Source of the DNA: Blastocatellia bacterium
GTDB taxonomy: Bacteria > Acidobacteriota > Blastocatellia > Chloracidobacteriales > Chloracidobacteriaceae
Length of the DNA: 64,000 nucleotides
Assembly (NCBI GenBank): GCA_019695185.1
Contig: JAIBAN010000019.1
Location: 1 to 64,000 of the forward strand
Reading direction: 5' to 3'
Program-made: the position numbers and the translations under genes
In this document: in pieces, positions 2,943-49,210 of the stretch
How the letters are laid out: each line of letters opens with the position of its first letter
How positions within the stretch are numbered: the first letter of the stretch is position 1
The notes under the pieces: model-generated
Told to the model about the DNA's origin: nothing
Databases searched by the model: none
The model's input: the letters and a program-made list of their open reading frames with translations, nothing else

Positions 2943-4985
2943 ATGCCCTACCAAGTCATCGCCCGCAAATGGCGTCCGCAGACTTTTGAAGAAGTTACCG
3001 GACAGGAATCCATCACCCGCACGCTCCGGAATGCCATTGAAACCAAGCGGTTGCATCACGCCTTTTTGTTTGCCGGACCACGTGGCGTAGGCAAGACCAC
3101 AACCGCCCGGTTGGTCGCCAAGGCGCTCAACTGCGTGCAGGGGCCAACGGCAAATCCTTGCGGCGATTGCCCTTCGTGTCAGGAAGTGAGGGAAGGCCGC
3201 TCGATTGACGTGCTCGAAATAGACGCTGCCTCCCATACCGGTGTGGATAACATCCGGGATGTCATCATCAACACCGTGGCCAATCGCCCGGCCCGCGACC
3301 GTTACAAGATTTTCATCATTGACGAAATCCACATGCTGTCGGCAAGTGCGTTTAACGCGCTGCTCAAAACGCTGGAGGAACCGCCCGCGCATGTGGTTTT
3401 CATTATGGCCACAACCGAACTGCATAAGCTGCCGGAAACGATTCTTTCCCGGTGCCAGCAGTTTGAGTTCCGGACCATCGGCACGGATAAAATTGCCGAA
3501 CGGCTGCGACTGATTGCCAACGAAGAAAAGGTTACGGTTTCACGGGATGCGTTGGTGCAGATTGCCTATGCCGGGCGGGGCAGCATGCGTGACGCCCAAT
3601 CGGCTTTTGACCAGGTCATTGCCTTCACCGGGAACCGGATTGAACTGGCCGATGTCCAAAATTCCCTGGGGCTCATCGGACCCCAGTTTCTGGCCCAGGT
3701 GACCGATGCTCTGGCTGGACAGGACGGAAAGCGGATGCTGCTGCTGGTGGACGAACTGGTTCGCACCGGGTATGACCTGCGCCAGTTCCTCCATGAGTTG
3801 ATGACTTATCTGCGCAACCTGCTCATGCTCAAAACAGTTGGGCCGGACCCGGAACTCCTTCCCGTGGCGGAAAGTGAACTCAAGCAGTTGAAAGACCAGG
3901 CTGGATATTTTTCGAGCGAGGATTTGGTCCGGTTTTTCTCACTCCTGACGGAGGTTGAACAACACCTCCGGTTTTCAAACGAACCGCGTTTCCAGCTTGA
4001 ATTCGGCCTCGTCAAGCTGACCCAACTGGCGCGGCTCAAGGGGTTGGAAACCTTGTTGGAACGACTCGAAAAACTGGCCGGAAATACACCCTCCGGTCCC
4101 GGCGGGTCGCCTGGAACACCCACGTTGCCTCGGACCGGGCCTGCATCGGCTCCCGGCGGCCCTGCGCCGCGCCCTGGCGGGAGCCGCATGAGTCCACCGC
4201 CGGCCAGGGCCGAAGTAGCTCCGCCACCGCCGACAATTCCTCCTGCACCAATGAAACCGGCTGAAACGACTGAAGTTAAGGAACGGTTGCCGCTTGACCG
4301 GATCATTCCCAAACCGAGCCTGCAACCGCTGGAACCGGCGCGCCCGTCAGTCCCCAGCCCTTCATCACCGGAAAAGTCAAAAGCGAAATTGATGGCGGAT
4401 GAAATTCCGCCCTGGATGGATGAGTCAGAGCTGCCGCCGGAGCCACCGGATGACCTGGATGACGAACCACCCTCTTTTGTTCAGGCTACTCCTCCACCAA
4501 AACCGGCTCCAGCACAGCGCCCGGCTTTGTCGGTTGTGAAGGAAGCTCCGGCACCAACCACCCCGGCAGGCGAAAAGCTCAATCTTGACACTTCCAGTGG
4601 ATTGGCAACCTTGTTGGGTTGCCTTAAAGATGAGCTGGAAAACAGCCGGAAGATGCTGCTTTTGGCGGCGGTGGAAAAAGTGGAGCAGGCCGAAATGGAA
4701 GGCTCTGATGTCGTATTGATACTGCCTCCCGGCGCAACCGAACTGTACAAACAGCTTTCACAACCAACCAATCTGGTTTTCATTCAGGAAGCAGTGCGCC
4801 GTATGACCGGGCGAAGTTTGAAAGTGCGCCCCAAGTTGGGAAGACTTGAGGGAGGGCGGATGGCTGCGATTACCGAATCCGAAGTGCAAAAGGCGGCCCT
4901 CCGGCGTCAGGCCGAAAACGACCCAACCGTCCAGGCTTTGATAAAAACGTTTCGGGGGGAATTAACGGATATTCGACCGGTGTAA
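2943..4985 (+). CDS. dnaX: DNA polymerase III subunit gamma/tau
   Basis: Clamp-loader ATPase of 680 residues. An AAA+ module fills residues 1-370: Walker [10 protein letters not shown] at 45-53, a zinc-binding Cys set (C64, C73, C76, C79), Walker B IIDEIH at 125-130 and sensor SRC at 169-171. A Pro-rich linker (about 385-545) leads to a C-terminal tau-like domain. I start it at the ATG at 2943 ([15 protein letters not shown]), the conserved family N-terminus; the frame reaches further upstream only inside the IS end. No good Shine-Dalgarno sequence precedes it. The IS982 copy ends 16 bp before the start, so the native promoter is likely displaced. An inverted heptamer array follows the stop. 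Confidence 0.96.
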
Positions 4986-16038: not shown

Positions 16039-16848
16039 ATGGCCGACCCAACCACCTGGGCCATGCCCGCCTTTGCCGGGCTGATTGCGCTCGAAGCCTG
16101 GTATGACCACTGGCAACGTGCCGGTGAATATTCCCGCAAAGATGCCATAACCAATATTGCTCTGGGGTTTGGCAGTGTTTTGTGGGGATTCCTGTGGGCC
16201 CCCTTACAGCTTTGGGCTTATCACAAGCTCCATGACCTGACGCCACTCCGGATGCCAACCAACACCTGGTGGACCTGGGTGGCGGTCATGCTCTGCGATG
16301 ACTTTTTTTATTACTGGTTTCACCGCATCAGTCATGAAAGCCGGTTGTTTTGGAATTTCCATGTGGTTCATCATTCCAGCGACCATTACAATCTGAGTGT
16401 GGCGGTCCGCCAGAGCTGGTTTGGCGGCATTGCCAATTGGCTCTTTTACGCCCCGATGGCGCTGCTCGGCTTTGAGCCCTGGATGATCGTTGCGGCTCAT
16501 GGATTCAATCTGCTGTATCAGTTTTGGATTCACACCCAGTTTATCAAGTCCCTGGGCTGGTGGGAAAACATTCTCAATACCCCAAGCCACCACCGGGTCC
16601 ATCATGGCGTCAACGAACCGTATCTGGACCGCAATTATGGCGGCATCCTGATTATCTGGGACCGTTTGTTTGGTTCCTATGTGCCGGAAACCGAGAAGCC
16701 GCGCTACGGGATTATCAAGCCGCTCAACAGTTTCAACCCATTGTGGGCCAATCTGCATGCCTGGATGGAAATGTTTGAAGCCATGAAAACCCGGCCTACG
16801 CTGTGGGGAAAACTGCGGTGTGTCTGGGGACCACCAGGAATGAATTGA
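16039..16848 (+). CDS. fatty acid hydroxylase / sterol desaturase family protein
   Basis: A 269-residue membrane di-iron oxygenase. Its three His clusters are HRISH (about residue 95), HVVHHSS (about 108) and HHRVHHG (about 183), the canonical set that binds two irons. Three or four hydrophobic stretches place it in the membrane. Substrates in this family include sterols, carotenoids and fatty chains; the sequence alone does not decide. The TGA stop (16846-16848) is itself the first TGA of a GAATTGA repeat array. Confidence 0.92.
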   Translation: MADPTTWAMPAFAGLIALEAWYDHWQRAGEYSRKDAITNIALGFGSVLWGFLWAPLQLWAYHKLHDLTPLRMPTNTWWTWVAVMLCDDFFYYWFHRISHESRLFWNFHVVHHSSDHYNLSVAVRQSWFGGIANWLFYAPMALLGFEPWMIVAAHGFNLLYQFWIHTQFIKSLGWWENILNTPSHHRVHHGVNEPYLDRNYGGILIIWDRLFGSYVPETEKPRYGIIKPLNSFNPLWANLHAWMEMFEAMKTRPTLWGKLRCVWGPPGMN

Positions 16849-16979
16849 GAATTGAGAATTGAGAATTGAGAAAACCGGTATGCCGTGCAGAGGTTTTCTC
16901 GGTTCACAAGTTTCACCTCAATCAAAAAATCCAGATGTGGATTCTCAATTCTCAATTCTCAATTCTCAATTCTCAATTC
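16843..16979. repeat. paired inverted heptamer array (GAATTGA type)
   Basis: The left arm (16843-16874) has four GAATTGA units; the right arm (16941-16979) has five TCAATTC units. The loop is about 66 nt. The hydroxylase stop codon is provided by the first unit of the left arm. Confidence 0.92.
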
Positions 16980-26128: not shown

Positions 26129-26305
26129 GTTTTGAGTTCCGCCTTCAGGCGGCGGTTTGCAGCAACCTTCAGGTTGTTCATTTTAAACGATTGAAAACAG
26201 TTGTAATGAAGAATCGGAATCCCAAGCTGCCGCCTGAAGGCGGAACTCAGAACCGCCGCCTGAAGGCGGAACTCAGAACTGCCGCCTGAAGGCGGAACTC
26301 AGAAC
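26129..26305. repeat. 26-bp hairpin repeat, one inverted copy and three direct copies
   Basis: One inverted copy (26129-26160, TTTTGAGTTCCGCCTTCAGG) faces three tandem copies (26228-26305) of GCCGCCTGAAGGCGGAACTC-AGAACT. Each copy holds the stem CCGCC-TGAA-GGCGG. The intervening 67 nt include a second hairpin-like CAACCTTCAGGTTG. The same layout occurs at 41981-42124. Confidence 0.9.
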
Positions 26306-26310
26306 TTTTC

Positions 26311-30715: not shown

Positions 30716-30823
30716 AGGACTAAGGACTGAGGACTGAGGACTGAGTCAAAACAAACCAGACATAAAATTCGTCGCTGTCGCTGCTTTATTTTACTTAGTC
30801 CTCAGTCCTCAGTCCTCAGTCCT
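30716..30823. repeat. paired inverted heptamer array (AGGACTG type)
   Basis: The left arm at 30716-30746 (AGGACTA and then AGGACTG units) and the right arm at 30795-30823 (CAGTCCT units) enclose a 48-nt loop. Both neighbouring genes are on the minus strand. Confidence 0.92.
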
Positions 30824-35361: not shown

Positions 35362-36030
35362 ATGAAGGCGACATTTTCTCCCCCCGAACCCGAATTGATG
35401 ACACAGGCGGATGTCCGCACCCGGTTGTTGACCGCCGCAGAAAAATTGTTTGCCCAGCATGGCCCGGCTGCCACCAGCATTCGTGATTTGGCCCGTGAAG
35501 CTCAGGTCAATGTGGCGGCCATCAATTATTACTTTGGCAGCAAGGAAAACCTGTACCTGGAAACCTTGCGGCAGGCGTTTCGGGCTTCCCGCGAGGTCAT
35601 GCCTCGTTTTGACGCCTTGGCTCAGGAGGCACAGGCAACAGGGACGGTCGAAGCCGCCCACACGGCGCTCCGGCTGTATATTGAAGAATTTATGAAATCG
35701 CTTTTTGTTTCGGACGAATCGGACCGGCACATGCGGCTGATGGCTCGTGAAATGAGCGACCCGACACCCGCCCTGGATGCGGTGATTGACGAATTCATCG
35801 AGCCGAAAAGCAATATTCTCAAGCAGTTGGTGGCACAGGCCCGACCTGATTTGGACCCCGAAACGGAAGTTCCTTTTTATGCCCTCAGCATTGTTGGTCA
35901 GTGCCTGCATTATCGCCTGACCCAACCAGTCATTTTGCGCCTGATGAAACGCGAAAAGATGACTTCGGAAATGCTCGACCAGATTTCCGTTCATATCGCG
36001 GCGTTTTCACTGGCAGCGCTTTCTCGTTAA
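35362..36030 (+). CDS. TetR-family transcriptional regulator (CerR/DUF1956-like)
   Basis: 222 residues. The N-terminal HTH is clear: RLLTAAEKLFAQHGPAATSI followed by AREAQVNVAAINYYFGSKENL. The C-terminal ligand domain resembles DUF1956. It stands directly upstream of an exporter gene set on the same strand and probably represses it until a ligand binds. The TAA stop is followed at once by a 9-bp repeat array. Confidence 0.9.
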   Translation: MKATFSPPEPELMTQADVRTRLLTAAEKLFAQHGPAATSIRDLAREAQVNVAAINYYFGSKENLYLETLRQAFRASREVMPRFDALAQEAQATGTVEAAHTALRLYIEEFMKSLFVSDESDRHMRLMAREMSDPTPALDAVIDEFIEPKSNILKQLVAQARPDLDPETEVPFYALSIVGQCLHYRLTQPVILRLMKREKMTSEMLDQISVHIAAFSLAALSR

Positions 36031-36191
36031 GAAGTCTAGGGAGTCTAGGGAGTCCAGGGAGTCTAGGGAGTCTTGGACGGTAGCCAATGACACGTCACAG
36101 TGATAGGTGTTTTTCTTATGCCTGCCACTTGGGATTTGGTTTTGACTCCCCAGACTCCCCAGACTCCTTGGACTCCCCAGACTCCCAAGAC
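36031..36191. repeat. paired inverted nonamer array (GGGAGTCTA type)
   Basis: The left arm (36031-36075) has five units of GGGAGTCTA or close variants; the right arm (36143-36191) has five units of GACTCCCCA or GACTCCCAA. The loop is about 67 nt. The upstream open frame of the permease gene (TPQTPQTPWTPQTPK) is translated repeat and not part of the real protein. Confidence 0.88.
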
Positions 36192-36201
36192 TGGAGCGGA
36201 T

Positions 36202-37335
36202 ATGTTTCGTATCGGACTGAAAATGTTGATTGGCGACCGCGCCAAGTACATCACGTTGGTGAGCGGGCTGTCTTTTGTGGTTTTGTTGTTCGTTCAACAG
36301 GGGTCGGTTTTTTGCGGGCTGATGGTTCGGACAGCCAAGCCTGTTGAAGCCGTGGGTGCGCCGATTTGGGTGTGTGACCCGAATCTGCAATCCATTGACG
36401 ACTCCAAACCCATGATTGACACGGAGTTGGGCCGGGTCCGGAGCGTGCCGGGCGTCAAGTGGGCGGTTCCGCTGTTTATCCGGCAGGTTCAGGTGCGCCT
36501 CAAGGATGGCAAGTTCCAGACCGTGCGGTTGTTTGGATTGGACAACTCGTCATTGATTGGACGCCCATCGGTGATGCTCGAAGGTGACCCGGCGGCACTC
36601 AATGCACCTGATGCTGTGATTTTGGGTAAAGCCGAGTCGGACCGCTTGGGAATCAACGGCCAGTTTCCGAAAATCGGTGACACTTTTGAACTGAATGACC
36701 GGTTGGCACGGGTGGTTGGGATTGCGGATGTTCCCCGTGATTTTTTGTCCAACCCTTATGTGTTCACCACCTACGACCGGGCGATTTTGTACGCCCCCCG
36801 CCAGCGCAAGCAGCTTAATTTCATTCTGGCCGCCCCGCAGGATGGGGTCCCGGTTGAGCAGGCACTGCAAAACATCCGCAAGACCACCGGGCTGGGAGCT
36901 TTTTCCCAGGAAGGCATGCAATGGCTGACAATTGGCTACTACATGAAAAACACCGGGATTCCCATCAACATTGGCATATCCCTGACACTGGTGTTTGTGG
37001 TCGGAATGGCCATTGCAGGACAGACCTTTTATGCCTTTGCGCTCCAGAATGAACGGTATTTCGGCGCGCTCAAAGCAATGGGCACCCGCAGCCGGACGCT
37101 GGTCGGGATGATTATTCTGCAAAGTGTGACCGTCGGGCTGATTGGATATGGAATTGGGGCTGGCGCGGCAACGTTTATCGGTTGGCTGGGACGGAATGGA
37201 AGGTTGGCTTTTTATACACCTTACCAACTGCTCATCATCAGTTTTGGAGTGACCATGTTTATCTGCCTGCTATCCAGTCTGGTCAGTATCCAACGGGTGT
37301 TGCGACTTGAACCGGCAGTCGTGTTCAGGGGATGA
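36202..37335 (+). CDS. ABC exporter permease, FtsX/DevC-like
   Basis: 377 residues. One N-terminal membrane helix (about 15-35), a long extracytoplasmic loop (about 40-250) and three C-terminal helices (about 265-370) form the FtsX/DevC layout. I start at the ATG at 36202 (MFRIGLKMLIGDRAKY), preceded by GGAG, as the preceding codons are repeat-derived. With the ATPase and fusion protein genes it makes a three-gene exporter. Cargo may be a glycolipid (as for DevBCA), a peptide or an antibiotic. Confidence 0.85.
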   Translation: MFRIGLKMLIGDRAKYITLVSGLSFVVLLFVQQGSVFCGLMVRTAKPVEAVGAPIWVCDPNLQSIDDSKPMIDTELGRVRSVPGVKWAVPLFIRQVQVRLKDGKFQTVRLFGLDNSSLIGRPSVMLEGDPAALNAPDAVILGKAESDRLGINGQFPKIGDTFELNDRLARVVGIADVPRDFLSNPYVFTTYDRAILYAPRQRKQLNFILAAPQDGVPVEQALQNIRKTTGLGAFSQEGMQWLTIGYYMKNTGIPINIGISLTLVFVVGMAIAGQTFYAFALQNERYFGALKAMGTRSRTLVGMIILQSVTVGLIGYGIGAGAATFIGWLGRNGRLAFYTPYQLLIISFGVTMFICLLSSLVSIQRVLRLEPAVVFRG

Positions 37336-37470: not shown

Positions 37471-38196
37471 ATGGCATCAACCAGTCTTCAGGCGGCAACC
37501 GGAAATGGCAATGGAAACGCCGCTATTTTGTCAAAAGTCAATAAGAGCTTTGGGTTGGGAGACACACGGGTTCATGTGTTAAAGGATGTGGACCTGGAGG
37601 TCAAATGTGGTGAACTGCTCTTGCTGGTGGGGCCTTCCGGGTGTGGGAAAACCACTCTTTTAAGCGTGCTGGCCGGGATTCTGGATATTGACGATGGGGA
37701 AATTGACGTGTTCGGAATTCGGGTTGACAACCTCCGCCAGGCAAAGAAAACCGATTTTCGGCGGGATTACATTGGCTTTATTTTCCAACAGTTTAACTTG
37801 GTACCAACCTTGACGGCGGCGGAAAATGTGGCCATTCCGCTGCTGATTGCCAAACGGCCTTATCAGGAATCTCTCAAGCAGGCCCGCCGGTACCTCGAAC
37901 TGGTTGGGCTGGGGGACCGCTCAGAGTTTTTGCCCACCCAACTTTCCGGCGGGCAGCAGCAGCGGGTGGCAATTGCCCGTGCTTTGGTGGCCGAACCCCG
38001 GCTCATTATTTGTGACGAACCGACGGCCAGTCTTGATGGCGAGACGGGCAAGCACATCATGGAAATGTTTCGTTCCATTGCTCTTTCGGAAAACCGGGCG
38101 CTGGTGGTGGTGACCCACGACAACCGGATTTTTTCTTACGGTGACCGGATTGCCGAAATGCTCGACGGGCGGATTTTGTCAGTGCATACAAACTAG
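37471..38196 (+). CDS. ABC exporter ATPase, DevA/MacB/LolD-like
   Basis: 241 residues. Walker A is [10 protein letters not shown], the signature is [15 protein letters not shown], Walker B is [12 protein letters not shown] and the switch His is in VVVTHD. The sequence groups with ATPases that work with FtsX-type permeases. It sits between the permease and the fusion-protein genes. Confidence 0.93.
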
Positions 38197-38200
38197 AGGC

Positions 38201-38367
38201 AGGGGTTCAGGGTCTTTTTAATTGAGAATTGAGAATTGACAATTGACAATTAAAACCCATCCAGAACTTCAAATTTCCTGATGTTCGAAAACCCTGGACC
38301 CTGGACCCTGAACCCTGGACCCTGAACCCTGAACCCTGAACCCTGAACCCTGAACCCTGAACCCTGA
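38201..38367. repeat. composite array with 11 tandem ACCCTGA/ACCCTGG heptamers
   Basis: An 11-unit perfect-phase run of ACCCTGA or ACCCTGG spans 38291-38367, the longest array in the window. Before it, AGGGGTTCAGGGTC (38201-38214) is the short opposite arm, and between them lie four GAATTGA-type units (38220-38251). Two repeat classes are thus nested in one gap. Confidence 0.92.
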
Positions 38368-38377
38368 ATGAGGACCT

Positions 38378-39430
38378 ATGCGGAAACTTGTCAGTATTTT
38401 GTTGCCATTGATTGGTATTGCTTTTGCAATTTACTGGGTGATGGTATCGGCAAAAAAACCAGCGGCGGCTCCGCCGTTGAATCCTCCGGCGCAAAACACA
38501 TACCTCAAAACCATTGCCGGAGCCGGCATCATCGAAGCCGCTGGCCGCAATATCAATGTTGCTCCTCCGATTCCAGGGCAGGTCACCCAGATTTTCGTCA
38601 AAGAAAATGATGTCGTCACCAAAGGAGCCAAGCTCTATCAGATTGACGACCGCGAGCAACGGGCAAAGCTGGCCACGGCAGAGGCCAATCTGGAACGGGC
38701 CGCCGCCGCCATTGCCACAGCCCAAACAGAGATTCTCAATCAGCAGGCTGCCGAAGCCAGCGCCAAAGCCAATATTGATGCTTTGAAAGCCTCGCTCGCC
38801 GATGCCCAGCAGATTCTGGACCGTAATGAAAAACTGGCGCAGGCTGGGGACATTCCCAATCGAACCATGGCTTCAAGTGTCGCCGCCCGAGATAATGCCA
38901 AAGCGAGGGTCAGCCAAGCTGAGGCCCAGCTTTTGCAAACCCAGGCCCAGATGCGGAGCGCCCAGGCCCGCCTCCTGCAAGCCGAAGCCGACAAAAAAGT
39001 ACTGGTTGCCCAACGCAATGAACTTTCCGTAATCTTGGATCGGTTGACGATTCACGCCCCGCAGGACGGGCGGGTGCTGCAAGTCAACATCCGCCTGGGT
39101 GAATATGTTTCCTCCCAACCGCAAACGCCGCCGATTCTGTTTGGTGAAACGAATTTCCTCCAAATCAGAGCCGATATTGATGAAATCAACGCTTCGCGGG
39201 TCCAGCCCGGCAGCAAGGCTGAAGCTCAGTTGAAAGGTGACCCAACCAAGAAAATCCAATTGGAGTTTGTCCGGATTGACCCTTATATCCTGCCAAAAAA
39301 GAGCCTGACGGGTGACAATACCGAACGGGTGGACGTGCGCGTCTTGCAGGTTGTGTACCGGTTTTCCCCTCCAGCTTTTCCGGTTTATGTCGGCCAACAG
39401 GTGGATGTTTTTATTGATGCAGGTTCCTAA
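38378..39430 (+). CDS. HlyD/DevB-family membrane fusion protein
   Basis: 350 residues. One N-terminal membrane helix (about 5-22), a lipoyl-like half (VAPPIPGQVTQIFVKENDVV), a long alpha-helical hairpin rich in Ala and Gln (about 100-210) and a second lipoyl/beta-barrel half (LDRLTIHAPQDGRVLQVNIR). It would link the inner-membrane pump to an outer-membrane channel. Its TAA stop is formed at the start of a GAATTGA array. Confidence 0.9.
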   Translation: MRKLVSILLPLIGIAFAIYWVMVSAKKPAAAPPLNPPAQNTYLKTIAGAGIIEAAGRNINVAPPIPGQVTQIFVKENDVVTKGAKLYQIDDREQRAKLATAEANLERAAAAIATAQTEILNQQAAEASAKANIDALKASLADAQQILDRNEKLAQAGDIPNRTMASSVAARDNAKARVSQAEAQLLQTQAQMRSAQARLLQAEADKKVLVAQRNELSVILDRLTIHAPQDGRVLQVNIRLGEYVSSQPQTPPILFGETNFLQIRADIDEINASRVQPGSKAEAQLKGDPTKKIQLEFVRIDPYILPKKSLTGDNTERVDVRVLQVVYRFSPPAFPVYVGQQVDVFIDAGS

Positions 39431-39563
39431 TTGAGAATTGAGAATTGAGAATTGAGAGTTTGAAATCCAAATCAAGTTGGTTTGATTGATTGAAATTGGC
39501 AAACTTTATTATTAAGGAAAAAGAACCGTCTCAATTCTCAATTCTCAATTCTCAATTCTCAAT
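39429..39563. repeat. paired inverted heptamer array (GAATTGA type)
   Basis: The left arm (39429-39458) has AATTGAG units starting at the gene stop codon; the right arm (39529-39563) has TCAATTC units. The loop is about 70 nt. Confidence 0.9.
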
Positions 39564-39640
39564 TTGCATTTCCCCCTACAAAGTGGTTTAACACGAGACA
39601 TCCAACAACGTACTTCAGACGAATGTGAGGAAGTGTTTTC

Positions 39641-40219: not shown

Positions 40220-40831
40220 ATGTATCAAAAAGCCCTCAAACACTTGAAAAAAGTGGACCCGGTGATGGACCGAATCATTACTCAGTGTGGTCCCTGCACC
40301 TACAACCCCGACCAGGCGGGAACCCATTATGACATGCTGGTGCGTGCCATTCTTTTTCAACAACTTTCCGGGAAAGCCGCAACAACCATTCATAACCGAT
40401 TGAAGGAGCGATTCGGCGGACGCAACCCTTTGCCCGCAGAAGTCATGGCTGCTCCGGATGAGGACTTTCGGGCCGTTGGTGTCTCCCGTCAAAAACTGAC
40501 CTACTTGCGCGATTTGGCGGAAAAAGCTCATTTGGGTACCGTGGCGATTGATACCTTGCACGAACTTGAGGATCCGGCGATTATTGGGGAACTGGTTAAA
40601 ATCAAAGGGATTGGCCGTTGGACCGCCCAAATTTTCATGATGTTCCGACTGGGACGGCTGGATGTCCTGCCGGAACTCGACCTGGGAATTCAAAAAGCGA
40701 TTCAGCTTCACTACAACCTGGAAACACTCCCCAAGCCCAAGGATGTGCTTGAAATTGGAGCCAAGTGGTCGCCCTATGCAACCATTGCCAGTTGGTACCT
40801 GTGGCGCAGTCTGGATGGGGAAGCAAACTAA
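40220..40831 (+). CDS. DNA-3-methyladenine glycosylase II-like protein
   Basis: 203 residues. HhH-GPD superfamily: the helix-hairpin-helix KIKGIGRWTAQIFMM is followed by the catalytic Asp in VLPELDLGIQKAI. This is the AlkA-type lineage that removes alkylated bases. There is no Fe-S Cys cluster, as expected for AlkA-like proteins. The short length (AlkA of E. coli is longer) fits the minimal form. Its TAA stop is formed by the next repeat array. Confidence 0.88.
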   Translation: MYQKALKHLKKVDPVMDRIITQCGPCTYNPDQAGTHYDMLVRAILFQQLSGKAATTIHNRLKERFGGRNPLPAEVMAAPDEDFRAVGVSRQKLTYLRDLAEKAHLGTVAIDTLHELEDPAIIGELVKIKGIGRWTAQIFMMFRLGRLDVLPELDLGIQKAIQLHYNLETLPKPKDVLEIGAKWSPYATIASWYLWRSLDGEAN

Positions 40832-40940
40832 GGACTGAGGACTGAGGACCGAGTGGAAGACGGGAAGATATTTGGGAAATCAAACTGGCAGCAGCCAAAA
40901 CAAAGAATTCTCAGTCCTCAGTCCTCAGTCCTCAGTCCTG
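40830..40940. repeat. paired inverted heptamer array (AGGACTG type)
   Basis: The left arm (40830-40854) contains AGGACTG, AGGACTG and AGGACCG; the right arm (40909-40940) has four CAGTCCT units. The loop is about 54 nt. The glycosylase stop codon is the edge of the left arm. Confidence 0.92.
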
Positions 40941-40947
40941 AAAAAAT

Positions 40948-41379
40948 ATGGTTTTTTCAACGTTTCAAAACCCGGAAGTCATTCGCTCCATCCTGCGCGA
41001 GTCCAAGCGGATTGCAGTGGTTGGGCTTTCGCCGAACCGGTTTCGTCCCAGCTATGGCGTGAGTGCGCAGATGCTGGACTGCGGCTATGAAATCATTCCG
41101 GTTAATCCGACGGTGGACGAGGTTTTGGGGCTGAAATGCTATCCGAATTTGGCGGCGATTCCCGGACCGGTTGATTTAGTCAACATTTTTCGCCGTTCGG
41201 AGGAAGTTCCCGAAATTGTCGAAGAAGCCATTGCCAAGCAGGCACGCGCGGTGTGGATGCAGCTTGGCGTTGTCAATCTTCCGGCTGCCGAACGGGCCGC
41301 CGCCGCCGGGTTGCAGGTTGTAATGGACCGCTGTCTTTCGGTGGAATACGGAAGGTATGGAAGAAGGACCGAGGGCTGA
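40948..41379 (+). CDS. CoA-binding domain protein (YccU-like)
   Basis: 143 residues with a Rossmann-type CoA-binding fold: RIAVVGLSPNRFRPSYGVSA at the N-terminus, IIPVNPTVDEVLGLKCYPNL and VWMQLGVVNLPAAERAAAAGL. Functions of these stand-alone proteins are unknown. The protein ends in RRTEG, where RTEG is encoded by an AGGACTG-type repeat, and the TGA stop lies in the same array. Confidence 0.88.
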   Translation: MVFSTFQNPEVIRSILRESKRIAVVGLSPNRFRPSYGVSAQMLDCGYEIIPVNPTVDEVLGLKCYPNLAAIPGPVDLVNIFRRSEEVPEIVEEAIAKQARAVWMQLGVVNLPAAERAAAAGLQVVMDRCLSVEYGRYGRRTEG

Positions 41380-41472
41380 GGACTGAGGACTGAGTTCGAA
41401 ACGCAAGACAGCCTGTTCAGGGAATGCGGTTCGAAAACTTTCTCAGTCCTCAATCCTCAGTCCTCAGTCCTG
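41365..41472. repeat. paired inverted heptamer array (AGGACTG type) overlapping a gene end
   Basis: The left arm (41365-41395) starts inside the CoA-binding gene and continues after its TGA. The right arm (41441-41472) has CAGTCCT and CAATCCT units. The loop is about 45 nt. Confidence 0.9.
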
Positions 41473-41980: not shown

Positions 41981-42124
41981 CAGTTTTGAGTTCCTCTTTC
42001 AGGCAACGGTTTAGAGAGCAGCCTTGAGGCTGCTGGAAGAAAAAGAGGCCGCCTGAAGGCGGAACTCAAAACTGCCGCCTGAAGGCGGAACTCAAAACCG
42101 CTGCCTGAAGGCGGAACTCAAAAC
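41981..42124. repeat. 26-bp hairpin repeat, one inverted copy and three direct copies
   Basis: An inverted, partly decayed copy (41981-42012, TTTTGAGTTCCTCTTTCAGG) faces three direct copies (about 42048-42124) of GCCGCCTGAAGGCGGAACTC-AAAACT. The spacer contains the perfect hairpin GCAGCC-TTGA-GGCTGC. It is the same architecture as at 26129-26305, but the tail reads AAAACT in place of AGAACT. Confidence 0.88.
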
Positions 42125-42125
42125 C

Positions 42126-45578: not shown

Positions 45579-45735
45579 TTGAGGATTGAGAACTCCGGAA
45601 TTGAGAATTAAGAAAGTGGTTCTCAGTTGAAAAAGAGAAGTATAGGTCAGTACAATCATTTTTCTGATTGAGAACCTTGGTTGAAGCAATTCTCAATTCT
45701 CAATTCTCAATTCTCAATTCTCAATTCTCAATTCG
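45578..45735. repeat. paired inverted heptamer array (GAATTGA type)
   Basis: The left arm (45578-45612) starts at the rhomboid stop codon and is somewhat decayed (AATTGAGGATTGAG). The right arm (45688-45735) has six TCAATTC units. The loop is about 75 nt. Confidence 0.88.
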
Positions 45736-45749
45736 AACTTCGAGGAACT

Positions 45750-46907
45750 ATGGCTCGACAACGCAAGCCGGGAACTGAACCAAAAATCGAAAAAGTAACC
45801 CCACTGACACCTGACCAGATGCTGCCGCTGCCTGCGAAAAAGCCCACCAAAACCCGTGTCCGGAGCCGGATTGTCCCGGTTTCCGCCGTTGGCACCGGAG
45901 AATCGTCCATGTTGACAGTGGTTCCGCCACCGGCAGCGGATTCGATTTTGTTACAGGTCGAAGCCCCTATTGTCGAAGCCCAGGTGGTTCCCAAACATAA
46001 AACGGCCAGCCAGCGTCTGGCAGCCAAAAAAGCCAGTCGTTCGGCTTTACCCCGCACGTTCACGAAAAGTTGGGCTTCCGCCATTTTCGACCCGTTTGTG
46101 GACGAAGAAGTGGACAAGCGGGTGCGTGAAGTGCCGACCTTTCTCAACGAGTATGGCTTTGACCCTTGGGGCTTGAATCCGTTGACGGCACGCTACGGGT
46201 ACACGGTCTTCAAATGGCTCTACAAATATTATTGGCGGGTCCAGGTCACCGGTATCGAAAATGTTCCCAGCGGGCGGGTGCTTCTGATTGCCAACCATAG
46301 CGGCCAGATACCGATTGACGGCGTGATGATTAGTGTGGCGATGCTGCTCGAATCAAGTCCGCCGCGCATCACCAGAGCCATGGTTGAACGCTGGTTTACG
46401 TCCATGCCGGTGGTGGGAAAATTCGTTGCCCGGCACGGCAGCATTGTTGGCGACCCCCTCAACTGTGAACGATTGCTCCAAAAAGGCGAAGCCATTCTGG
46501 TTTTCCCCGAAGGCATCCGGGGTTCTGGCAAAGTCTGGCGGGACCGATACAAATTGATGAAATTCGGGCTTGGTTTTATGCGACTGGCAATTGCCACCAA
46601 TACGCCAATTGTACCCATTGGTGTCATCGGCGGCGAAGAGCAAGCCCCCAGCTTTGTTGACTTCAAACCTCTGGCCAAAATGTTGGGATTGCCCTATTTC
46701 CCCATCACCCCGACCTTCCCCTGGTTGGGTGCCCTGGGCGTGATTCCGTATCCAACCAAATATCACATCTATTTCGGCAAACCGCTCCATTTTCGGGGGG
46801 CGGCTGATGACCGGGACGAGGTGATTCAACGCAAGGTGGATGTCGTCAAAAAGTCCATCCGCGAACTGATTGACCGAGGGCTGGAAGAACGGGAAAGCAT
46901 TTTTTAG
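45750..46907 (+). CDS. lysophospholipid acyltransferase (PlsC-like)
   Basis: 385 residues. A Lys/Arg/Pro-rich N-terminal extension (about 110 residues) comes before the acyltransferase domain. Catalytic NHSGQIPID (His and Asp spaced by six residues, as in NHSGQLP-type members) and FPEGIRGSGK are both visible. The enzyme probably acylates a lysophospholipid or related acceptor. The ATG at 45750 follows CGAGGA; the upstream open frame is translated repeat (SILNSQF). The TAG stop is formed by the first base of an AGGACTG array. Confidence 0.85.
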   Translation: MARQRKPGTEPKIEKVTPLTPDQMLPLPAKKPTKTRVRSRIVPVSAVGTGESSMLTVVPPPAADSILLQVEAPIVEAQVVPKHKTASQRLAAKKASRSALPRTFTKSWASAIFDPFVDEEVDKRVREVPTFLNEYGFDPWGLNPLTARYGYTVFKWLYKYYWRVQVTGIENVPSGRVLLIANHSGQIPIDGVMISVAMLLESSPPRITRAMVERWFTSMPVVGKFVARHGSIVGDPLNCERLLQKGEAILVFPEGIRGSGKVWRDRYKLMKFGLGFMRLAIATNTPIVPIGVIGGEEQAPSFVDFKPLAKMLGLPYFPITPTFPWLGALGVIPYPTKYHIYFGKPLHFRGAADDRDEVIQRKVDVVKKSIRELIDRGLEERESIF

Positions 46908-47029
46908 GACTGAGGACTGAGGACTGAGGACCGAGTCAGAATAATTTGGCCAGTTGAAAATGAAGTTTTACTACATCCCGGAAAGCTGTTGATTCTTCCT
47001 CAGTCCTCAGTCCTCAGTCCTCAGTCCTT
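46905..47029. repeat. paired inverted heptamer array (AGGACTG type) between convergent genes
   Basis: The left arm (46905-46937) has four units, the first giving the acyltransferase TAG; the right arm (46998-47029) has four units and contains the TGA stop of the convergent prolyl oligopeptidase gene. The loop is about 60 nt. Both genes end inside the structure. Confidence 0.93.
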
Positions 47030-49058
47030 GGTTGAGTTCCGCACAGATAAAGCTCAAAAAATCCACCGCTTCTTCAATCCGTTTGGCGGTTGGTTTGCCC
47101 ACACCGTGCCCGGCCTGGGCTTCCAGCCGGAGTAAAATCGGGTGCGGCCCAACCTGGGCGGCTTGCAGGAGCGCCGCCATTTTGCGGGCGTGGAGCGGGT
47201 CCACCCGTGTGTCGGATTCAGCCGTCATCAACAAAACCGCTGGATACACAGTTCCCGGCTTGACCTGATGATACGGTGAATAGGCCCGCAGCCAGCTAAA
47301 ATCAGCCGGTTCGTCGGCGCAGCCGTATTCGGGAATCCAGGTTCGGGCAATCAAAAAGAGGTGATAGCGGAGCATGTCGAGGAGCGGCACCTGACAGACC
47401 ACCGCCCGAAAGAGGTCCGGGCGCTGGGTCAACACTGCTCCGACCAGCAACCCGCCGTTGCTCCCGCCGTTGATAGCCAGTTTTTCCGGAGTCGTGTATC
47501 CGGTTTGGATTAAATGCTCCGCCGCACTGATGAAATCATCAAAAACGTTCTGCTTCCGTTGTTTCATACCGGCTTCGTGCCAGCTTTCGCCATATTCGCC
47601 GCCGCCGCGCAGGTTCGGCAACGCATAGATAAAGCCGGCGTCCAGCAGGGCCAGGTAGGAACCCAGAAATTCCGGTGTCCGGCTGATATTGAAACCGCCG
47701 TAGCCGGTCAGAATCGTCGGATTGGTGCCGTCCGGTTGTAATCCCTTGCGATGAACCAGAAACATTGTCACCCAGGTACCATCCTTGCTCGGATAGCGGA
47801 CCTGCTTGATGTCATAGCGGCTGGCATCAAGCGCCGGAGCCTGGATTCCGGCAAACAGACGGCTTTCCCCGCTGGCCAGATTTTCCTGCCGGACCATCAT
47901 TGGTGTGATGAATGAGGTGAAGCTGAAAAACAGGTCCGGGTCATTCCATTCACCGCTCATCACGGAAACCGTTCCGAGGCCAGGCAGTTCAAGCTCCCGT
48001 TCGAATTGGCCATTCAGGTCAAAAATCCTGATTTTGGAGTGTGCCTGTTCCAGAAACCGGCAGACCAGTTTGCCGCCCACCACGCCACTTGCTTCAAGCA
48101 GGCAATGGCCTTGGGGAATCAATTCGCGCCAGGGTTCGCGGGGGCGTTCCAGGTCCACTGCCATGACCCGGTAGAATGGTGCCTGCCAGTTGGTCCGCAG
48201 ATAGAGCGTGGTGCCGATGATTTCCCCGCTGAAGGAAGCGTCCAGATTTTCCACCAGGGGAAAAAATCCTTCATTTCGGGTCCGGTCGCAAATGTAGACA
48301 TCCTGAATGTCAAAGGTCCGCGAAGCCGTCACAAGTAAAAACCGGCCATCGGGAGACAAATGAGCATCCAGATATTCTTCCGGCTTGCGGTCTGCTCCGA
48401 AAACCAGCGGGTCGGTTTCAGGGTCAGACCCCAGTTGATGAAAGAACAGACGCCGGTTGTAATGTTCCTGTCCGGGCGGGACACTGCCGGGTTTGGGATA
48501 ACGGGTATAGTAAAAACCGCTTCCATCCGGCAGCCAGGCCATTGAGGCGTAGCGGGTGAAAGGAATTGCGTCCGGGAGCAAGGTTCCCGTGGCTACTTCC
48601 AGCACCGCAAGAGTGCTCATTTCGCTGCCGTTGCTCGAAAGGCCAAAGACGACTTTGGTTCCGTCAGGCGACGGCACCCACCAGTCGAGCGTCACGGTTC
48701 CATCGCTGCGGTTTTGATTGGGGTCAACCAAAATCGTTTCCGTTCCGCTTGTGCGGTCACGACAGACCAGCACTGCCTGATTTTCCAGGTCCGTGCGGCG
48801 GGTGTAAAACAGTCTGTCAGGCCGGACTGCCGGAGGTGCCACGGCTCCCAGCCGGGCAATCCCCGTCACAAATTCCCGGAGGAACTCCCGTCCGGGCAAC
48901 GCATCCAGATAGGCCCGCGAATAGGCATTCTGGGCGGCAGTCCAGGAACGGACCCGTTCTGTTTTGCCGTCTTCCAGCCAGCGGTAAGGGTCGGCAATCT
49001 GATTGCCGTGATAGGTGTCAATGATTTCTTCGATGGGTGTGATGGGAGGCGGAAGCAT
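47007..49058 (-). CDS. prolyl oligopeptidase family protease
   Basis: 683 residues. An N-terminal seven-blade propeller (about 70-400) leads to an alpha/beta hydrolase domain. Catalytic residues are in NGGSNGGLLVGA (Ser), ESDTRVDPLHA (Asp) and GHGVGKPT (His). It cleaves short peptides after Pro. There is no signal peptide, so it is cytoplasmic. The last residues GLRTED are encoded by an AGGACTG array and its TGA is part of it. Its start codon context is CCCTGAATG, also from an array. Confidence 0.95.
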   Translation of the reverse strand: MLPPPITPIEEIIDTYHGNQIADPYRWLEDGKTERVRSWTAAQNAYSRAYLDALPGREFLREFVTGIARLGAVAPPAVRPDRLFYTRRTDLENQAVLVCRDRTSGTETILVDPNQNRSDGTVTLDWWVPSPDGTKVVFGLSSNGSEMSTLAVLEVATGTLLPDAIPFTRYASMAWLPDGSGFYYTRYPKPGSVPPGQEHYNRRLFFHQLGSDPETDPLVFGADRKPEEYLDAHLSPDGRFLLVTASRTFDIQDVYICDRTRNEGFFPLVENLDASFSGEIIGTTLYLRTNWQAPFYRVMAVDLERPREPWRELIPQGHCLLEASGVVGGKLVCRFLEQAHSKIRIFDLNGQFERELELPGLGTVSVMSGEWNDPDLFFSFTSFITPMMVRQENLASGESRLFAGIQAPALDASRYDIKQVRYPSKDGTWVTMFLVHRKGLQPDGTNPTILTGYGGFNISRTPEFLGSYLALLDAGFIYALPNLRGGGEYGESWHEAGMKQRKQNVFDDFISAAEHLIQTGYTTPEKLAINGGSNGGLLVGAVLTQRPDLFRAVVCQVPLLDMLRYHLFLIARTWIPEYGCADEPADFSWLRAYSPYHQVKPGTVYPAVLLMTAESDTRVDPLHARKMAALLQAAQVGPHPILLRLEAQAGHGVGKPTAKRIEEAVDFLSFICAELNQGLRTED

Positions 49059-49210
49059 TCAGGGTTCAGGGGGTTCAGAGTTCAGGGTTCAGGTTGTTTT
49101 TCATTGTCCACAGCGAATTCCTGATTGTCCAATGGCGGAAAGCGGAAAATTGTTGTATCAAGAGTCCTGCTGCCCAGAAACCCTGAACCCCGAAACCCCG
49201 AAACCCTGAA
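49059..49210. repeat. paired inverted heptamer array (CCCTGAA type) between divergent genes
   Basis: The left arm (49059-49095) has TTCAGGG units; the right arm (49176-49210) has CCCTGAA and CCCCGAA units. The loop is about 80 nt. Both divergent genes begin with the same context CCCTGAATG, so each start codon abuts its arm, and no separate Shine-Dalgarno sequence is seen. Confidence 0.85.

Follow-up and report, generated by a model that had tools for sequence, protein, structure and literature searches.

An 11-unit heptamer array between two exporter genes of a Blastocatellia bacterium: a probable arm of a non-coding repeat dispersed through the genome

The window, by which we mean the whole 64,000-nucleotide stretch analyzed here, lies within contig 122 of a Blastocatellia assembly (G000; 8.33 Mb, 222 contigs, 99.73% complete) and harbors an exporter operon with genes for a permease, an ABC transporter ATPase and a HlyD-type membrane fusion protein (Table 1; genes were called with a custom script instead of published software). 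Among named records, the closest to the HlyD-type protein comes from an Acidobacteria MAG (66% identity). The gap between the ATPase and HlyD-type genes measures 181 bp and contains an element of about 165 bp, in which a short inverted left arm, a core and a long right arm follow one another. Read directly, positions 38291–38367 consist of ACCCTGG, ACCCTGG, ACCCTGA, ACCCTGG and then seven ACCCTGA units, with one extra base to 38368; Tandem Repeats Finder places this array at 38290–38368 (11.3 copies), the top-scoring 7-bp array in the window. The initial annotation had described 11 such units in 7-bp phase, preceded by a GAATTGA block and an inverted arm, and all three are present; the span that it assigned to the array, 38201–38367, fits the whole element, the array alone occupying 38291–38368. 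An Rfam scan of the window returned three tRNAs only. The predicted fold of the junction RNA scores better than that of its shuffles (z −3.0; 2 of 200 shuffles equally good). The short left arm could base-pair at several registers along the long right arm, and extra units should therefore alter the best hairpin little.

Table 1. Genes and inverted-array elements of the window.
Feature	Position	Strand	Details
TGAGAAT-word inverted-array element	16842–16979	.	
TGAGGAC-word inverted-array element	30723–30823	.	
TetR-type regulator gene	35398–36030		
9-mer inverted-array element	36033–36192	.	AGTCTAGGG / GACTCCCCA; between TetR-type gene and permease gene; junction ~19 bp in G001
FtsX/MacB-type permease gene	36202–37335	+	PF02687, PF12704; same operon
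ABC transporter ATPase gene	37471–38196	+	PF00005 (E 1.3e-35); upstream of element
Short left arm	38203–38214	.	GGGTTCAGGGTC; inverted with respect to right arm, G-rich strand on +; direct reading
Element core	38215–38290	.	TTTT-rich start, GAATTGA/GACAATT block (38220–38251), unique half with TTCGAAAA at its end
Right arm	38291–38368	.	11 ACCCTGR units, C-rich strand on +
Native junction remainder	38369–38377	+	Probable Shine-Dalgarno GAGG (38370–38373) of HlyD-type gene, assigned from the motif
HlyD/MacA-type membrane fusion protein gene	38378–39430	+	PF16576, PF13437; downstream of element
TGAGAAT-word inverted-array element	39429–39564	.	3′ of HlyD-type gene; GGGTTCA-word element at same gene end in G003
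TGAGGAC-word inverted-array element	40831–40939	.	Junction near-empty in G003
TGAGGAC-word inverted-array element	41376–41471	.	Array contains upstream stop codon
TGAGAAT-word inverted-array element	45598–45734	.	
TGAGGAC-word inverted-array element	46906–47028	.	Between convergent genes
TGAACCC-word inverted-array element	49058–49190	.	

The core recurs throughout the genome. A search of G000 with an 84-bp core query (38213–38296), for which 40 of 435 first-look candidates were scored, gave at least 42 matches, counting the window's own copy and a 27-bp piece; the remainder (at least 40) are 81–98% identical to the query, mostly over near its full length. The query matched G003 and G001 through its GAATTGA-type part alone and had no match in G005. 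Thirteen copies from G000 were read, among 30 loci returned (the other 17 are from G001 and G003), and all 13 have the same core flanked by TTCAGGG and ACCCTGA arms, at unrelated loci; the GAATTGA block is part of this core. Left arms have 1–7 units and the internal AATTGA units number 3–7. The right arms comprise 11 (the 38291–38368 array), 3, 5, 33, 8, 11, 11, 4, 5, 4, 6, 6 and 9 units, a range in which 11 is ordinary, and the two copies closest to the window element (98% core identity) carry 3 and 5 units. The earlier suggestion that unit number can change is thus supported, as variation among same-core copies within one genome. Genome-wide, three perfect ACCCTGA units are matched 423 times on the forward and 365 times on the reverse strand (overlapping matches included). 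The TGAACCC family shares with MITEs its inverted repeats at the ends and its scattered, nearly identical copies; no target-site duplication was evident by eye in the outer flanks of the 13 copies. The 11-unit array is one arm of a small non-coding dispersed repeat, and the element was probably inserted into the exporter operon.

TGAACCC arrays or cores also lie at or near the start of several G000 contigs (C10:6-103, C154:6-90, C22:1-82, C184:59-143 and C222:120-203). Several contigs end in arrays as well. Such contig ends indicate that the assembly is interrupted at these repeats, and the length given for long arrays may be wrong.

The gap between the ATPase and HlyD-type genes was compared with that of related genomes at seven usable loci (L029, L030, L032, L034, L037, L038 and L040; minus-strand loci were left unoriented). 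Against 181 bp in the window, it measures 154 bp in G003, 15 bp in G005, 13 bp in G012 and 89 bp, without arrays, in G011; at locus L037 it is 76 bp. The G001 junction holds GAAGGAT and other arrays, and that of G003 (L030 1347-1500) a different inverted-arm element with palindromic arms of the AAGCTTTAGCTTG type, apparently an independent insertion in the same gap. The junction is thus different in each of these relatives, and the exporter does not come with a conserved array.

Twenty-seven junctions were compared across relatives, with J22 and J23 excluded as paralogous gene pairs (38–56% identity to the exporter operon) and the J27 comparison limited by alignment ends. At several of them an element in G000 faces next to nothing in the relative: 171 versus 19 bp at J4, 116 versus 11 bp at J7, 155 versus 20 bp at J12 and 186 versus 13 bp at J18, and likewise 181 versus 15 bp (27 bp by protein ends) at J6. 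J8 is the reciprocal case, with 35 bp in G000 and 192 bp including a GAGTAGC element in G003. At J14 (133 versus 93 bp) and J20 (185 versus 216 bp), by contrast, the relative has a long array-free gap; being of about spacer length or longer, these gaps are what one would expect if arms had been added to a gap already present, and they speak against simple insertion. J13 has arrays in both genomes, built from different words. The G003 words include AACCACT, AAGAATG, ACTACTG, ACTCGCT and AGGGATG, with AACCCTG common to G000, and TGAGGAC triplets occur in 4 of the 58 genomes searched, abundantly in G000 only. A G001 junction (L111, ~3995-4215) has outer GGGTTTC/GAAACCC arrays nested around inner TTTTGAA/CAAAATT arrays.

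The initial annotation had suggested that slippage in the array could alter the leader of the downstream exporter gene, a possible phase-variation device. As a contingency locus of this kind, the array would switch or tune expression of the exporter. The array does adjoin the probable ribosome site, and unit number does differ among core copies. However, the array ends 9 bp upstream of the HlyD-type start codon, directly 5′ of the GAGG motif, where it is outside the reading frame and a frame change is impossible; nor is promoter spacing involved, since the array overlaps none that a simple consensus scan recognized, the single weak plus-strand match lying within the GAATTGA block. Moreover, the array is present at this junction in none of the five relatives, and hundreds of equal arrays stand beside genes of all kinds, the element neighbors including such ordinary ones as those for a thiolase, a DNA glycosylase and a CoA-binding protein. 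The accessible part of Rehm et al. (PMC4692102) makes the same argument for the GGGAATC repeats of Xanthomonas. We regard a contingency locus as very improbable.

The architecture of the element is shared by arrays of other words. Exact period-7 runs, defined by at least 12 matching positions and compared with 10 order-1 shuffles, number 24 in the window against a mean of 0.0 in the shuffles; over 457 kb (the window and loci L009–L028) there are 137, against 0–16 at each other period from 2 to 13. The dominant words in this sequence are TGAGGAC, TGAGAAT, TGAACCC and TGAGTTT, together with 9-mers of the AGTCTTGGG type, and arrays of the same word form inverted pairs whose word-specific polarity was kept in all 48 pairs. 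With a word-independent finder, 322 arrays in 770 kb of G000 yielded 84 inverted and 2 direct pairs; the corresponding figures were 25 and 2 in G003 (366 kb) and 4 and 1 in G001 (126 kb of selected contigs). A G-rich left arm faces a C-rich right arm in 111 of 113 pairs from the three genera, the two exceptions having ATTTGC-type words, and in 21 of 22 when each distinct word is counted once. The same polarity with respect to the nearer gene was seen in 103 of 129 unpaired arrays; 24 of 161 unpaired arrays lie within genes. Extrapolated from 84 per 770 kb, a genome would hold ~900 pairs, a rough figure drawn from a non-random sample. A choice of arm words for stop codons when read inward was rejected (12 of 22 distinct words against a null mean of 11.3; 915 of 2,000 shuffles gave at least as many).

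Placement is equally regular. In the 770 kb of G000, 83 of the 84 pairs are intergenic, with a median distance of 4 bp from arm to gene 3′ end (106 sides; the stop codon is overlapped in 34 and lies within 0–10 bp in 48) and of 28.5 bp from arm to gene 5′ end (60 sides). Element-bearing junctions comprise 28 of the ++, 26 of the −−, 26 of the +− and 3 of the −+ type, and background junctions of at least 60 bp 146, 117, 68 and 74, respectively. Divergent, promoter-bearing junctions are thus avoided (3 of 83 with elements versus 74 of 405 overall) and convergent ones favored. The position right after stop codons, the avoidance of divergent junctions, the large excess of inverted over direct pairs and the fold of the window copy would all suit a selected intercistronic RNA or DNA structure of the BIME/REP kind, acting in mRNA 3′-end protection, in differential expression within operons or in binding of gyrase or another protein. 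This explanation is nevertheless doubtful: at one and the same junction, genera differ in the word and the position of the element, the lengths of left and right arms show no positive correlation, and spacers have no more structure than intergenic DNA elsewhere. Structured spacer RNA was rejected as a candidate on this last ground, TGAGGAC and TGAGAAT spacers not differing from 60 control intergenic windows (Mann–Whitney p 0.70).

The families differ in what lies between their arms. Spacers of the 9-mer elements have a second copy in the sample in 4 of 5 cases (AGTCTTGGG) and 3 of 3 (AGTCTGGGG), and alignment scores of TGAACCC spacers exceed those of shuffles (mean 27.3 versus 15.4). Of the TGAGGAC and TGAGAAT spacers, 20 of 25 and 22 of 24 are without any other copy, and the remaining matches are two local inverted duplications, array remnants and one weak short match; a residual shared core was not found, in that scores within these families exceed shuffles no more than those between them. 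Copy-and-paste of a fixed unit is thus seen for the TGAACCC and 9-mer families only; the TGAGGAC and TGAGAAT elements are either old families with decayed cores, or their spacers were never a fixed unit. Arrays could also have accreted in place, arising at the gene edges of a gap and being copied in inverted form to its other side by template switching, and spacers that resemble unique ordinary intergenic DNA, together with the shared polarity of unpaired arrays, are what such a process would leave. We consider this unlikely, as junctions of 11–20 bp in relatives (J7, J12) are far below spacer length and the TGAACCC core is itself dispersed.

Several further arrangements were seen in these families. 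TGAGGAC elements form a pair around one gene at locus L009 (5454-5609 and 6925-7079), with inverted-homologous spacers; the product of the flanked gene is 414 aa long, has a caspase-type domain (PF00656) and matches Tudor-knot/Agenet at its C terminus. A second TGAGGAC pair, on contig C2 (41278-42748; L128–L130 joined), surrounds an ORF without a Pfam match. Within the pairs, the spacers are inverted and 76–81% identical, which hints at a local inverted duplication or at elements recombining with each other. On contig 11 (84064-84221; L013 4064-4221), a 115-bp TGAGGAC array adjoins a TGAACCC array and has no inverted partner in range. The window additionally contains 26-bp tandem arrays at 26227-26306 and 42048-42125, the latter intergenic, which combine the palindrome CCGCCTGAAGGCGG with AACTCA-type words; related pieces are also present in contig 7.

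The closest precedent is the GGGAATC repeats of Xanthomonas and Nostoc. According to the accessible part of Rehm et al. (2015, PMC4692102), these heptamers (GGGAATC / GGGGA(C/T)T) form intergenic tandems and convergent inverted pairs (70 in Xcc), with the G-rich sequence on the sense strand where a stop codon lies no more than 50 bp upstream, and on the antisense strand where an ORF follows; divergent junctions are rare, and that part reports no function. G000 agrees in its period-7 arrays far above chance, their intergenic location, the polarity of the G-rich arm and the avoidance of divergent junctions. By contrast, one word type is described in that part of the source, whereas G000 has several words per genome, with other words in related genera, and some of its families have a dispersed shared core. 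The same part also reports that the G-rich Xanthomonas/Nostoc heptamers form quadruplexes in vitro, and the TGAACCC family has a GGG run every 7 bp, so that (GGGTTCA)n might fold into a quadruplex on the template strand and block polymerase; the TGAGAAT, TGAGTTT and TGAGGAC families, however, have the same architecture and placement without any GGG, and we think a quadruplex element improbable.

Other known systems share single traits with these elements, as far as the accessible parts of the sources describe them. REPIN/BIME sequences associated with RAYT transposases (PMC3116915, PMC2817692) likewise consist of two inverted units with a short spacer between them, lie outside genes, are non-coding and reach high copy number; however, each G000 arm is a heptamer array whose length varies, and not a single palindrome (REP), and Y1 transposase genes of G000 and G003 are not flanked by arrays. 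The BrickBuilt MITE of Porphyromonas gingivalis (PMC4596501) is also a dispersed intergenic element containing a tandem array, but there a 23-bp minisatellite lies within inverted ends (19 copies), whereas in G000 the inverted ends are the arrays themselves. TAACTGA heptamers of Beggiatoaceae, cyanobacteria and Bacteroidetes (PMC4679880) are intergenic tandems near start codons with indels in 7-nt steps; they differ as direct arrays, mostly in one orientation to the start codon, with a single indirect repeat in the main genome.

We thus read the array, with a probability of about 0.7, as the longer, right-hand arm of a non-coding repeat with dispersed copies, in which inverted arrays of a 7-bp word surround a core of ~75 bp and the arms change in length. 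Many similar cores exist in G000, arm length varies among them, and the elements sit in intergenic positions at gene ends; at the same junction in related genera the element is absent, and elements have been gained or lost at operon junctions between genera. We infer that copies spread by duplication into intergenic gaps and that insertions would persist where genes, ribosome sites and promoters are spared, that is, at gene ends and rarely at divergent junctions. Replication slippage may then lengthen or shorten the arms and, in the older TGAGGAC and TGAGAAT families, may maintain them while cores decay. The effect at the exporter operon is most likely passive: the ATPase and HlyD cistrons would be separated by a transcribed spacer with an imperfect RNA hairpin, and expression of the second gene (HlyD) would change mildly at most. 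Neutral spread leaves the universal polarity without explanation, which counts against this reading.

No mobilizing enzyme was found among the Y1 transposase and RVT_1 candidates. Y1 transposases number 11 in G000, and the 16 Y1 loci read (9 in G000, 7 in G003) are free of arrays up to 1.2 kb from the domain, a few of them reaching a contig end close by. Not being beside arrays, and being present as well in the Chloracidobacterium-like genomes G004 and G005, where the absence of arrays was judged by one word (TGAGGAC) and a reading of the DNA, the Y1 transposase was rejected as mobilizer. A reverse transcriptase was rejected as array maker: array-bearing G001 (90% complete) has no RVT_1 match.

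Intergenic heptamers, convergent inverted pairs and the same placement are already known from Xanthomonas and Nostoc, as the accessible part of PMC4692102 documents. No description of these repeats in Chloracidobacteriaceae was found in the literature searched, most subscription papers lying outside its scope, and as far as that literature shows, the new features are several word families that obey one polarity rule in a single genome, the turnover of words between genera, and a dispersed core from which the spread of modules can be seen. Long intergenic heptamer tracts are not to be taken by default for phase-variation switches. Heptamer repeats are found again and again in unrelated bacteria, and no account of their origin is accepted; since word families apparently of different ages share G000, related genera use other words, and junctions that bear an element have element-free counterparts, an origin by insertion, accretion or slippage becomes testable here. 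More speculatively, a word-agnostic process or enzyme might build and insert inverted heptamer arrays of any sequence, and might also underlie the Xanthomonas/Nostoc repeats. If so, each genus of this one bacterial family would have its own vocabulary of 7–9 bp words in one common architecture: a G-rich arm and a C-rich arm that face each other over a distance of mostly 30–150 bp and hug stop codons.
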